In this document: positions 19,499 to 23,033 of the stretch, in pieces | Numbering within the stretch: position 1 is the first letter of the stretch | How the letters are laid out: each line of letters opens with the position of its first letter | The notes under the pieces: generated by a model | Database searches by the model: none | What the model saw: the letters and a program-made list of their open reading frames with translations, nothing else | What the model was told of the DNA's origin: nothing | Origin: Knoellia koreensis | Lineage (GTDB): Bacteria; Actinomycetota; Actinomycetes; Actinomycetales; Dermatophilaceae | DNA: 64,000 nt | NCBI RefSeq assembly: GCF_013041615.1 | Contig: NZ_JABEPQ010000002.1 | Location: 124,001-188,000 of the forward strand | Reading direction: 5' to 3' | Translations under genes and position numbers: made by a program

Positions 19499-20174
19499 CG
19501 TCGTGCGTGCCGTCATCCTGGGCGCCGAGGGGTATGCCGTGTGCGGCCACCGGGCGCCGCGCCGAGAAGTGCACGGCGTCGACACCGGTGTCGAGCACCC
19601 GCCCGACCGTCCGAGCGCTGATGCCTCCACCGGCCATGACCTGGATGCGCCCGCCGGCAACCTCCACCATGCGACGAAGCCTCTCGCGGCCCTCAGGTGC
19701 GCTGACCGCGCCACCCGACGTCAACACCCGAGTAGCACCTGACCCGATCGCAACCTCTACGGCCGCAACGGGATCCGCACACACGTCGATGACCCGGTGG
19801 ATGGTCACCTCGCGGCCACCGGAGCGCTCCACCACCTGCGCGACGAAGTCGCCGTCCAGCTGCCCGCCAGCCACCTGTGCGCCGACGACGACACCGGCCG
19901 CGCCGGCGTCCAGCGCACGCTCGACGTCGGCGTACGTCACGGCGAGCTCGTCCGCCGTGTACCGGAAGCCACCGGGCCTCGGGCGCACGAGGACGTGGAC
20001 CCCTACGGCACCTTGGGTTGCGGCAACGGCTGCCTCGATCGTGGCGATCGACGGCGTCACTCCCCCGAGGGCCAGCGCCGAGCACAGCTCGACCCGGTCG
20101 ACGTCCAGCCCGACGGCGATCCGCACGCCCGCAGCATCCTGGACGGCGAGCTCGAGCTGCGGCTGGGCCGTCAT
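19434..20174 (-). CDS. cutC: CutC family protein
   Basis: 246-residue TIM-barrel protein of the CutC family, historically linked to copper tolerance though its biochemical role remains uncertain. Typical segments are RVELCSALALGGVTPS near the N-terminus, VHVLVRPRPGGFRY, TIHRVIDVC and VMAGGGIS. It starts inside the stop of the M81 peptidase gene (ATGA overlap), so the two are translated together. Its end overlaps the convergent LacI-type gene by 65 nt. Confidence 0.92.
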   Translation of the reverse strand: MTAQPQLELAVQDAAGVRIAVGLDVDRVELCSALALGGVTPSIATIEAAVAATQGAVGVHVLVRPRPGGFRYTADELAVTYADVERALDAGAAGVVVGAQVAGGQLDGDFVAQVVERSGGREVTIHRVIDVCADPVAAVEVAIGSGATRVLTSGGAVSAPEGRERLRRMVEVAGGRIQVMAGGGISARTVGRVLDTGVDAVHFSARRPVAAHGIPLGAQDDGTHDVTDRDLAAAVVAQVGRPTPGR

Positions 20175-21700
20175 CGCCGCGCCTTCGGTGGCTTTGCCGG
20201 GCCGCTGAGGACCTCCGCCCTCAGGTCCGGCGCCCAGCCGCCGCCGACGCGAGTCTCCGGGTCGAACGGGTGAACCGGGCGCCGAATCTCCTTGTGTCCC
20301 AACCGCTCAAGGTCCTGGTCGACGCCGCCGGGCGTCAGCGCCAACGTCCACCCGCGGGCGAGGTCGTGCAGCGTCGGCTCGAGGTAGCCGATCTTCGTGA
20401 CGACGATGTCGGCACCCCCCGGGTCGAGCCCGATGGCGGTGAAGTCGGCGACGTCGTGGAAGGCCTTGCGGTGCTCGGTGACGACGGCGTGCAGACCGCC
20501 GACCCGGATGACGGCGATGCCACCCGCGTCGGGATCACCCTCGTGCAGCGAGTGGAGTATGCCGCGCAGTCGCGCCGGCGGGGCGGGTGACGGTGTCGTC
20601 CGCGCACCAACCTCGATCTCGACGAAGTCGCCGATCTCCCTGTGCCGCAATGCCTCCAGGGCCTCGGCATCGAACACCGACGCAACGAGGGTGGTGGGCG
20701 AGTCATCGGCGGTGAGGTCCGGTCGCTCCAGCAGCCGCGCGAGCGTCCAGGTGACGTCGCCGGTTCCCCCAGCACCGGGGTTGTCGCCGGAGTCGGAGAT
20801 GACGTGGGGCCGGGTGCGGCCGGCCAGGGCGCGGTCGACCGCCTCGTCGAGGGTCGCGGTCGGGCCGACGAACTCGAAGTCGTCCCGTACCCGCCACAGC
20901 TCGCGTGCGAGCTCCTCCGCCCCTCTCGCACAGGCCTGGGGGTCGGTTCCCTGCACCACCACGGTGGCGTGGCAGCGTGGCTCGTCGGCCCACGCGTAGC
21001 CCACCCAGATCGCCGCGTCGACGACGCCGTCGCGGCTGGCGACCTCGGGCAAGCGAGCGTAGAGACTCCGGGCCGGCTCGACGCGGGTACTGGTCTTCTC
21101 CCCCGGCAGCAGGATCGGCACGGCCACGCGCGCACGGACCGGGTCGGCCCCCGAGAGCAGTACGTCCACCAGGTTGCGACCGGCGCGGTCTCGGGTCTCG
21201 TCGGCGTCCTCGTGCGGAGCCATGCGAAAACAGGTGAGCAGGTCGACCTGCTCGGCCAGCTCGCGGGAGACGTTGCCGTGCAGGTCCATCGCGGCCGAGA
21301 TCATCACGCCCGGTCCGACCACCTCCCGAACCGCCCGCACGAGGTCGGCCTCCGCATCCCGCAGGCCGTCCACCGACATGGCCCCGTGGATGTCGAGCAG
21401 GATGCCGTCGAGCGGTCCGTACGCCAGCGCCGCCCGCAGCCCGGAGCAGATCCGCGCCCGGTGGTCGGCATAGGTGTCGGCCAGCACGGCCCCGCCCGGG
21501 ATCGACCGCGCGAAGTGCACCCCCACCCACTCGACCTCCGGCGCGGTCTCGCGCGTCACGGCATACCGGTCGAGGAGCTCCTGTCCGGCAAGGACCCGGA
21601 AGTCGCGCGCCCCCGCGCGGTGCGGCGAGAAGGTCGAGGACTCGATCCACATGCCGGCCACGGCGATCCGCAAGCGGCGGTCGGCATCGGTCGGCGGCAC
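20171..21700 (-). CDS. M81 family metallopeptidase (MlrC/microcystinase C-like)
   Basis: 509 residues covering the DUF1485/M81 domain and the MlrC C-terminal domain. Features are ESSTFSPHR near the start, ILLDIHGAMSVDG, AAMDLHGNVS and HEDADETRDR (candidate metal ligands), then SDSGDNPGAGGTGD. Relatives include microcystinase C and uncharacterised zinc hydrolases, so the real substrate is unknown. I start at the GTG at 21700: TAGGTT (21708-21713) ends 7 nt before it and the family starts shortly before RIAVAGMW. Upstream open frame is not conserved. It is coupled to cutC. Confidence 0.87.
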   Translation of the reverse strand: MPPTDADRRLRIAVAGMWIESSTFSPHRAGARDFRVLAGQELLDRYAVTRETAPEVEWVGVHFARSIPGGAVLADTYADHRARICSGLRAALAYGPLDGILLDIHGAMSVDGLRDAEADLVRAVREVVGPGVMISAAMDLHGNVSRELAEQVDLLTCFRMAPHEDADETRDRAGRNLVDVLLSGADPVRARVAVPILLPGEKTSTRVEPARSLYARLPEVASRDGVVDAAIWVGYAWADEPRCHATVVVQGTDPQACARGAEELARELWRVRDDFEFVGPTATLDEAVDRALAGRTRPHVISDSGDNPGAGGTGDVTWTLARLLERPDLTADDSPTTLVASVFDAEALEALRHREIGDFVEIEVGARTTPSPAPPARLRGILHSLHEGDPDAGGIAVIRVGGLHAVVTEHRKAFHDVADFTAIGLDPGGADIVVTKIGYLEPTLHDLARGWTLALTPGGVDQDLERLGHKEIRRPVHPFDPETRVGGGWAPDLRAEVLSGPAKPPKARR

Positions 21701-21787
21701 GGCGCCCAACCTATCGGTGCGTCCGCTCCGCGAGACGGGGACCGCTGCCCGTGGACGCAGCCGCGTCGCCCGTGCTGCACTTGTCCC

Positions 21788-21871
21788 ATGTCTTCGTCCA
21801 CCGCACGGCTCTGCGCGCTCATGGGTTCCATGTGCCGCTGCACCATGCGGTGTTGCTGCCACTGCGCCTGA
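21788..21871 (+). CDS. Cysteine-rich leader ORF 1 (putative attenuator peptide)
   Basis: A 27-codon ORF with seven cysteines, ending with the cluster MRCCCHCA and a stop. It lies in the 383-nt gap between the M81 gene and the cysteine dioxygenase. Cys-rich short ORFs upstream of sulfur genes act as cysteine-responsive attenuators in mycobacteria, and this context (cysteine catabolism downstream) fits. The Cys codons TGTTGCTGC can pair with GCAGCAG just after the stop, and a stem-loop follows at 21890-21914. No ribosome-binding site is seen, so it would have to be leaderless, and no good -10 box is evident. Confidence 0.5.
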   Translation: MSSSTARLCALMGSMCRCTMRCCCHCA

Positions 21872-21889
21872 CCAGCCCGCAGCAGCCAC

Positions 21890-21914
21890 GTCCTCCCCCA
21901 CCGGGGTCGAGGAC
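21890..21914 (+). promoter_or_regulatory. Stem-loop between the two leader ORFs
   Basis: GTCCTC (21890-21895) pairs with GAGGAC (21909-21914), and CCCC with GGGG inside, giving a strong compound hairpin 18 nt after leader ORF 1. It may be an attenuator terminator or a translation-control structure. Confidence 0.45.
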
Positions 21915-21935
21915 CCAGACCCGGAGACGAGACCC

Positions 21936-22133
21936 ATGCCTACACCGGCACCCAGCCACACGGCATACCGCCGCATCCATCTCGACCTGTTCCTCGTGCA
22001 GGGCTCGATGTGTCCCCGAATGTGTTGCGCCGCAATGCATTCGCAGACCACCAGCCATCACCGACCTGCACAGGAGACAACCCATGACCGCCGTCACCAC
22101 CGGCACCCCCGGAGTCAACCGCTTCACCCGTAA
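21936..22133 (+). CDS. Cysteine-containing leader ORF 2 overlapping the cysteine dioxygenase start
   Basis: A 65-codon ORF with a good ribosome-binding site (GGAG, 9 nt before ATG). It contains RRIHLDLFLVQGSMCPRMCC, which resembles the RR-x-H-(V/I/L)-D-L ... SxxC pattern of short actinobacterial leader peptides found upstream of sulfur-metabolism genes. The stop lies 50 nt inside the cysteine dioxygenase gene in another frame, so ribosomes stalling at the Cys codons or terminating past the next start could modulate that gene. The 3' half after the Cys cluster may not matter. Whether it is translated is unknown. Confidence 0.45.
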   Translation: MPTPAPSHTAYRRIHLDLFLVQGSMCPRMCCAAMHSQTTSHHRPAQETTHDRRHHRHPRSQPLHP

Positions 22134-22566
22134 CCAGCTGCTGCGCACCGCGCGGCTTTTCGCCAGCGACCCAGACCTGCACCGACTCGTCGACCTCGAC
22201 TCGAGCGAGCGCACCTGGCACCGCCTCGACGCCACCGACCACCTCGAGATCTGGGTCATCGGCTGGCCCGTCGGGTCACGGACCGGCTGGCACGACCACC
22301 TGCGGTCCGAGGGGGCGTTCCTCACCGTCACCGGCGAGCTGCTCGAGCAGACCTTCTCCGGCGGCGAGGTCCACGACCGGCTCCTCTGGGAGTCGGAGGG
22401 GCGCTCGTTCGGCCCGCGGCACGTCCACAACGTCGCCAACCTCGGCGACCGTCCAGCCCTGTCGGTCCACGTCTACTCCCCCGCGCTGCGCGGAATGACG
22501 CGGTACGCCCTGGTCGACGGGGCCCTGCGCGAGACCAGCGTCGAGCGGGCGGGGGTGCAGTGGTGA
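22084..22566 (+). CDS. Cysteine dioxygenase
   Basis: 160-residue cupin that should use Fe(II) and O2 to oxidise L-cysteine to cysteine sulfinate in the cytoplasm. The metal site is visible as HDH (70-72) within GWHDHLRSEGAF and HVH near 113-115. The position equivalent to the mammalian Cys-Tyr crosslink cannot be confirmed by eye. AGGAG precedes the ATG at 22084. The stop overlaps the rhodanese start (GTGA), so cysteine oxidation and sulfur transfer are co-expressed. Two Cys-containing leader ORFs upstream suggest control by cysteine or charged tRNA-Cys. Confidence 0.88.
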   Translation: MTAVTTGTPGVNRFTRNQLLRTARLFASDPDLHRLVDLDSSERTWHRLDATDHLEIWVIGWPVGSRTGWHDHLRSEGAFLTVTGELLEQTFSGGEVHDRLLWESEGRSFGPRHVHNVANLGDRPALSVHVYSPALRGMTRYALVDGALRETSVERAGVQW

Positions 22567-23033
22567 CCGCCATCGCACCCGCCGCAACCGCACCGGCGAG
22601 CACCCACGACCCGCTCTGGGAGACGCGGCTGTTCAGCGCGCCGCACTACGACGGCATCGACCACCAGCTCGCCGACGCCCGGAGCCGGCTGCGCAGGGTG
22701 AGCGTCCGCGCGGCATACCAGGAGGTCCTGCACCACCGCGCGGTCCTCGTCGACATCCGGCCGGCCGCCCAACGCGCCGCCGAGGGCGAGGTGGCCGCCC
22801 ACCTGGTCCCGCTCGTCGTGGAGCGCAACGTCCTGGAGTGGCGGTTCGACCCGCGCCATGACGCGCGCCTCCCGGTAGCGGGTTTCGACACCCGGGTGCT
22901 CGTGCTGTGCCAGGAGGGCTACACCTCGTCGCTGGCCGCAGATGCCTTGGTGCGCTTGGGAGTTCGTCGGGCCAGCGATGTGGTCGGCGGGTTCCGGGCG
23001 TGGCGCGAGGCGGGGCTCCCCGTCGCGCGCTAG
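22563..23033 (+). CDS. Rhodanese-like sulfurtransferase
   Basis: 156-residue single rhodanese domain. The aspartate motif LVDIRP (about 62-67) and the active-site Cys116 in VLCQEGYTSSLAA are present; the loop is the six-residue CQEGYT type. The enzyme carries persulfide sulfur to an unknown acceptor. GTG 22563 overlaps the cysteine dioxygenase stop by 4 nt; the GTG one codon earlier is equally possible. Pairing with cysteine dioxygenase suggests handling of sulfide or sulfite released during cysteine breakdown. Confidence 0.88.
   Translation: MTAIAPAATAPASTHDPLWETRLFSAPHYDGIDHQLADARSRLRRVSVRAAYQEVLHHRAVLVDIRPAAQRAAEGEVAAHLVPLVVERNVLEWRFDPRHDARLPVAGFDTRVLVLCQEGYTSSLAADALVRLGVRRASDVVGGFRAWREAGLPVAR

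Follow-up and report, generated by a model that had tools for sequence, protein, structure and literature searches.

What would two short cysteine-rich reading frames do in series ahead of an enzyme annotated as catabolizing cysteine, and in which direction would they switch it? The question is raised by a locus in the window, the whole 64,000-nucleotide stretch of contig NZ_JABEPQ010000002.1 from the soil actinobacterium Knoellia koreensis analyzed here, where two such frames (ORF1 and ORF2) precede a cysteine dioxygenase (CDO) gene and a rhodanese-like gene. A sequence-only reading had proposed cysteine-responsive attenuation of the kind known for mycobacterial polycysteine ORFs. Our analysis replaces this suggestion with a circuit that can be tested down to individual base pairs and codons, and which involves the following features.

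21752-21756, + strand: -35-like element TGGAC, 17-19 nt 5' of the -10-like hexamer in 20/23 loci
21773-21781, + strand: extended -10-like element (TG, then TGCACT), with a geometry shared by 22/23 loci
21788-21871, + strand: ORF1, polycysteine leader of 27 aa, kept in 15 loci
21800-21851, + strand: P2, predicted long hairpin within ORF1 (minimum free energy [MFE] folds of 12 loci; consensus fold)
21852-21886, + strand: P3, predicted hairpin that includes the end of ORF1 (final Cys codons and stop) (MFE and consensus folds)
21890-21914, + strand: P4, GC-rich hairpin between ORF1 and ORF2 (shuffle z-scores, 15 loci)
21923-21926, + strand: ORF2 Shine-Dalgarno GGAG, in the predicted 3' strand of P1 (pairing probabilities, 15 loci)
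21936-22133, + strand: ORF2, HxDL-type leader of 65 aa (core coding score; phase lock)
21984-21995, + strand: ORF2 codons D17-L20, of which codons 19-20 are predicted to face the CDO Shine-Dalgarno
22011-22013, + strand: first conserved Cys codon of ORF2, C26 = UGU (alignment A3)
22023-22028, + strand: second Cys pair of ORF2, C30 and C31, absent from some relatives
22072-22076, + strand: CDO Shine-Dalgarno AGGAG, inside ORF2
22084-22566, + strand: cysteine dioxygenase, CDO (CDO_I, PF05995; Pfam and PDB profile match)
22563-23033, + strand: rhodanese-like protein (PF00581), overlapping the CDO stop

The CDO product matches PF05995 with an E value of 3.7e-19 and 69.3 bits against a gathering score of 23, as expected of a type I enzyme, and PDB profile 8qfl with an E value of 8.6e-20. 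The second gene matches PF00581 (E=8.1e-6). ORF1 encodes MSSSTARLCALMGSMCRCTMRCCCHCA followed by a stop, and RRIHLDLFLVQGSMCPRMCC is present within ORF2. With the CDO start placed at ATG 22084, ORF2 overlaps the enzyme gene by 50 nt. Searching the region 21500-22300 against Rfam at E<=1 returned 0 matches. A divergent gene of the M81/MlrC family (PF07364, PF07171) lies on the minus strand at about 20174-21670 of the window, and since its conserved part begins near 21670, it may have promoter DNA in common with ORF1.

All 11 Pedococcus genomes of our collection contain CDO, and ORF1 and ORF2 occur together in 11/11 of them and in 4 genomes of three neighboring genera (G051 and G195 from one genus, G194 and G219 from two others). 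In G221, the pattern search matched ORF2 and no ORF1. The ORF1 consensus in most loci is MSSTTA...HM..MC..xMRCCCCA followed by a stop, and ORF2 reads close to YRRIHLDLLLTQGSxCxRMCC before running on into CDO. A further neighboring genus has a polycysteine ORF only, such as MSSTAAARMFPVMPAAVMCCRCCR and a stop, directly 5' of CDO in 8/8 genomes, counting those in which a CDO match at E<=1e-30 came with a locus. In these loci (L013, L175-L179, L181, and L182), the polycysteine ORF looks leaderless and there is no HxDL ORF; visual inspection showed no conservation of the P1-type pairing. When 18 further CDO loci (L013-L030) were read by eye, an HxDL leader was found in 4 and a polycysteine ORF in 1 (L013), not counting the HVDL that occurs inside a long L020 frame. 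At the sequence level, two cysteine leaders before CDO are confirmed as real and conserved, in agreement with the sequence-only reading, which had placed two cysteine-rich leaders in series before the operon and named conservation in relatives as a check.

Conservation matters here, as the DNA word for three Cys codons and then TGA matches 67 times in this genome, fewer than the 91 matches of the same pattern reversed as a control. Sought in this way across the genome, polycysteine ORFs were thus not enriched, and a polycysteine end without its conservation means little.

For a wider survey, we took the best 80 of 186 relatives, less L141, L152, and L165 with their short or odd upstream ends, and screened the resulting 77 loci from 450 nt upstream to 130 nt into the CDO match with motifs written after such leaders had been seen. 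Within this set, an HxDL-type leader lies near CDO in 64/77 loci and a polycysteine end in 10/77, while either motif was found in 0/77 reverse strands, 0/77 regions farther upstream, 0/75 downstream regions, and 0/77 block-shuffled sequences, controls that rule out a chance origin of the leaders. Loci L091-L098 repeat lineages counted in the Pedococcus and neighbor set, as L091-L096 are genomes already counted and L097 and L098 have the same leader peptides as L173 and L174. When the motif was narrowed to RRVHLDLVRYAG and its variants, it was present in 62/74 of loci L097-L170, again within the best 80 of 186, and tblastn detected a rhodanese homologue in 71/74 of these named loci and in 12/12 of L001-L012. 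Most CDO genes of L103-L170 are preceded by a Streptomyces-type leader, such as FWRRVHLDLVRYAGCVCRPSC and a stop, and leaders of these loci end 82-422 nt 5' of the CDO match. All three of the Streptomyces-type CDO leaders scored, out of the 62 found, belong to NF042934, a family of "putative leader peptides" (31.8, 33.8, and 32.8 bits). Among the loci examined, from Streptomyces and from other actinobacteria, CDO often has one cysteine leader ahead of it.

Two side observations extend the picture of HxDL leaders. In two Pedococcus genomes, an HxDL leader (RRHVDLLRVSSALC) lies near position 1501 of L034 and L036, before an SsuE/SsuA-like operon; in G008, the one genome given family searches, SsuE passes the TIGR03567 cut-off and an SsuA-like protein falls short of its own, and the operon of G009 is a look-alike. 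A genome from a different family within the order has a weak match to NF042934 that stays below the cut-off at 22.2 bits (G063:C4:382667-382717, minus strand) and lies 76 nt upstream of its CDO match.

ORF1 looks leaderless by promoter geometry. A TG at -15/-14 and T....T at -12 to -7 from the start codon occur in 22/23 loci, with L002 shifted by one base, and an extended -10 element at this position would put the transcription start at the A of the ORF1 ATG. The frame is open in 15/15 loci, with one in-frame codon inserted in L001 and a GTG start in L003. Codon 16 is Cys in 15/15 loci, and at least two of codons 22-25 are Cys in 15/15, although this cluster varies: L003 and L010 each have a single Arg in it, and L172 and L173 have more changes. 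The coding score reveals no protein-level constraint on ORF1 (Z of 0.03), and its variability is lowest at third codon positions (0.10 versus 0.19 and 0.15). ORF1 matched 0 NCBIfam families at E<=1 for the window and 0 at E<=10 for L005, and it falls outside the mycobacterial polycysteine models NF042933 (Ms5788A) and NF042936 (Ms4527A). The constraint on ORF1 is seen at the nucleotide or RNA level rather than in the protein.

The ORF2 core is constrained as a peptide. Codons 7-26 have a coding Z of 3.57, equaled by 1/400 column shuffles, while the whole of ORF2 reaches 1.75 (20/400 shuffles as high) and another frame gives 2.11. The tail carries no coding signal either before CDO (Z of -0.57) or over it (-0.70), and the extension into CDO therefore rests on a phase lock: measured from HxDL to the CDO ATG, six different distances occur (79, 82, 85, 91, 94, and 124 nt), and they are 1 mod 3 in 16/16 loci, the independence of these length changes being limited by the relatedness of the loci. 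By comparison, all three phases occur in the ORF1-ORF2 gap among 15 loci. The ORF2 frame passes the CDO start in 15/16 loci and ends 16 nt 5' of it in L172. The sequence-only reading had described ORF2 as having a good ribosome-binding site and overlapping the enzyme start, which the GGAG at 21923-21926 and the 50-nt overlap bear out. Its view of both ORFs as reading frames holds for the ORF2 core, and ORF1 is better described by RNA-level constraint.

The family to which ORF2 belongs is less direct. The window's ORF2 matched 0 NCBIfam families at E<=1, as did a shortened consensus-like ORF2 at E<=10, and it falls outside NF042934 at the hmmscan cut-off of 27 bits. The ORF at the same position in L172 scores 28.3 bits on this model, and on this basis we regard ORF2 as a divergent relative of NF042934 and not a member by the model. 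The CDO leaders of L023 and L022, which like L172 are relatives from the same family, score 31.7 and 28.6 bits, the L012 counterpart scores 12.9 bits, below the cut-off, and the leaders of L015 and L173 receive no score. The proposed likeness to polycysteine attenuators accordingly suits ORF1, whose anatomy fits a leaderless polycysteine ORF, and does not carry over to ORF2.

Folding predictions suggest how the two leaders could be connected. A closed domain of P1-P4 appears in the MFE folds of 11/12 loci, the exception being the window, whose full-length MFE fold lacks P1. In P1, the first 9-12 nt of ORF1 are predicted to pair with the ORF2 Shine-Dalgarno region. P1 has a probability of at least 0.72 in 12/15 loci, with the window's own at only 0.33, and its value is reached by no more than 1/60 synonymous ORF1 shuffles in 10/15 loci, compared to 20/60 for the window. 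Compared to synonymous shuffles, stability of the whole domain has a z-score below -2 in 12/15 loci (-1.03 for the window). P4 varies in sequence between loci and has a z-score below -1 against mononucleotide shuffles in 12/15 (mean, -1.71). Covariation gave these predictions no support: in alignment A2, 1/30 pairs changed on both sides, with 144/500 shuffles as high, the RNAalifold covariation term was unfavorable for A2, and A3 gave no convincing consensus. An intrinsic terminator between ORF1 and ORF2 was considered and rejected, as neither P3 nor P4 is followed by a U-run in the window. The strong hairpin noted earlier between the two ORFs is present at 21890-21914, and the models suggest that it is one arm of a larger fold closed by P1 and not a terminator. 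Farther downstream, the predicted partner of the CDO Shine-Dalgarno is formed by ORF2 codons D+2/D+3 in 13/16 loci; this masking beats synonymous shuffles (no more than 1/60) in only 3/16 loci, with no clear excess in the other 13.

We then folded the RNA with ribosomes placed on it, each represented by a 29-nt footprint held unpaired, and averaged over 15 loci for the ORF2 site and 16 for the CDO site. Openness of the ORF2 site rises from 0.10 to 0.42 with a ribosome on the ORF1 start and to 0.41 with a three-ribosome queue reaching from the Cys cluster back to that start. The site stays shut with a stall in ORF1 alone (0.11-0.13) or with a stall and one queued ribosome that falls short of the ORF1 start (0.12). 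For the CDO site, openness increases from 0.16 to 0.30 when a ribosome stalled at the first ORF2 Cys codon has one queued behind it, with a gain of at least 0.1 in only 7/16 loci, and the site remains closed when a stall has no queue (0.15-0.19). For Streptomyces-type leaders, the consensus of 39 loci, selected by distance out of the 62, predicts pairing between the last leader codons (CCGUCCUG) and the Shine-Dalgarno of CDO (CAGGACGG). Among the 41/50 such leaders modeled (9 were dropped as having no AGGA[CG]G site), the CDO site has an openness of 0.02, which becomes 0.26 once a ribosome occupies the second Cys codon, 0.27 if it occupies the stop codon, and 0.05 if it occupies the first Cys codon; in 0/41 is the site lifted above 0.6 by a ribosome on one of the two Cys codons. 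These folding results modestly favor a circuit in which a stall opens the downstream site.

Combining the sequence level (both ORFs and how they are conserved, the promoter geometry, and the phase lock of ORF2) with the folding level (P1 in most loci and both maskings), we propose a two-stage translational attenuator that senses cysteine supply through the speed of Cys decoding, a reading that we hold to have about an even chance of being right. Transcription, we infer, would begin at the ORF1 AUG, leading to leaderless translation of ORF1. In the resting RNA, the first codons of ORF1 would pair with the ORF2 Shine-Dalgarno through P1 and close ORF2, and the D-L-x-L codons of ORF2 would pair with the CDO Shine-Dalgarno and close CDO. 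When charged Cys-tRNA is scarce, ribosomes would slow on the ORF1 Cys codons, and the queue behind them would extend as far as the start, where it would cover the P1 strand and open the ORF2 site. Ribosomes on ORF2 would slow in turn at the UGU codon, and their queue would cover the strand masking the CDO site, so that this site is uncovered and CDO and rhodanese are made. With ample cysteine, P1 would shut, and any ribosome on ORF2 would travel across the CDO start rather than leave it accessible.

Provided that the leaders do act, we lean toward the operon being on during cysteine shortage, a sign that, like the purpose of sulfur scavenging, is inferred. The key Cys codon of ORF2 is UGU in 15/15 loci (alignment A3) and that of the Streptomyces-type leaders in 45/45 unique cores, which are not independent. 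UGU makes up just 15/154 Cys codons in long high-GC3 ORFs of the window and 129/979 in Streptomyces-type loci, and the invariance of what is elsewhere a minority codon points to decoding. Sulfonate use serves sulfur shortage, and the same leader type before a sulfonate-type operon likewise argues for shortage. This sign is odd for a purely catabolic enzyme, which suggests that the operon may scavenge sulfur. Application to cysteine catabolism, as first proposed, is doubtful, because the anatomy suits sites that open upon ribosome stalling and queueing, as under cysteine shortage, unless the leaders arrest on excess.

That exception is the strongest alternative, a cysteine-excess switch in which run-through of ORF2 unmasks CDO by coupling or in which the HxDL peptide arrests on excess cysteine; we consider it possible but unlikely. 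The frame of ORF2 is open across the CDO start in all but one of 16 loci, as coupling needs, and conservation of the HxDL peptide exceeds the needs of a codon sensor, both in ORF2 (Z of 3.57) and in the Streptomyces-type leaders (Z of 5.76, with 0/500 shuffles as high). An excess switch would also suit an enzyme annotated as catabolic. However, equilibrium folding, which does not cover closing time, returns the CDO site to its closed state after ribosome passage (0.17 versus 0.16), and neither the invariant UGU nor the leader before the sulfonate-type operon is in keeping with it. If excess did turn the operon on, the widespread HxDL leaders would be a cysteine-sensing arrest or coupling device.

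It is improbable that ORF1 is instead an untranslated structured RNA, possibly ligand binding, with P1 gating ORF2 and ORF2 as the sole cysteine sensor. The quiet third codon positions of ORF1, its lack of a coding signal, and the closed multibranch P1-P4 domain in most folds would all suit such an RNA. Yet the frame stays open in every one of the 15 loci, its start is placed for leaderless initiation, and its sole length change (L001) is in frame; the genus that lacks ORF2 and has no evident P1 still carries an ORF of the form MS-TAA...MCC... in 8/8 genomes with a CDO match at E<=1e-30, and Rfam offers no match. Action of the leaders on transcription, through Rho-dependent or intrinsic termination and not Shine-Dalgarno masking, is more improbable again, for although Rho has been suggested for mycobacterial cys leaders (Seliverstov et al. 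2005, PMC1262725), P3 and P4 lack a U-run in the window and most loci have the masking partner in common.

If the attenuator is indeed on during shortage, an enzyme annotated for cysteine catabolism would be recast as a sulfur scavenger. We tentatively extend this to a general suggestion, itself more doubtful than the circuit: actinobacterial CDO-rhodanese operons might not be primarily catabolic and might recover sulfur from other thiols upon Cys-tRNA shortage, with the two leaders of different families in Pedococcus and its neighbors forming a serial relay that gives a steep, AND-like response and in which run-through means off.

How does this arrangement compare to known systems? Among the top-ranked papers listed, no title or abstract opening shows a leader before CDO. 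Candidate cysteine leaders have been predicted for cys operons of mycobacteria and Propionibacterium acnes and for cbs of Bifidobacterium (PMC1262725). The portion of the Streptomyces lividans reannotation at hand (PMC8079986) gives eight leaders, none of them before CDO. The metL leader MSTTSDRTPATEATTTPGARCMCRRMCAF (Table 4 of PMC8079986) is called methionine dependent there; three Cys codons close to its end give it the appearance of a cysteine leader. Leaderless polycysteine sORFs act as cysteine-responsive attenuators in Mycobacterium smegmatis (Canestrari et al. 2020, as related in passages of PMC9094748, PMC9031893, and PMC13236596), and the same passages ascribe control to the speed of elongation through the Cys codons and to translation attenuation. 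As far as these excerpts describe them, such sORFs resemble ORF1 in being short, leaderless, rich in contiguous Cys codons, and upstream of other genes, but the first codons of ORF1 can mask the site of a second leader and not that of the enzyme gene. The tandem leader peptides of ermB (PMC8274638) likewise put two leader ORFs before one controlled gene, but they respond to erythromycin and not to amino acid decoding. ORF2 shares with NF042934 leaders an RR-x-H-x-D-L core and a Cys about 9 residues on; unlike them, it has no Arg after HxDL and continues into CDO. The TnaC leader senses tryptophan excess through peptide arrest and Rho. Like ORF1 and ORF2, it precedes a catabolic operon, and its peptide arrest has at most a hypothetical counterpart in either ORF. 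Lone cysteine leaders often precede CDO in the loci examined; what is new here is the serial pair of two leader types with an overlap into the target gene.
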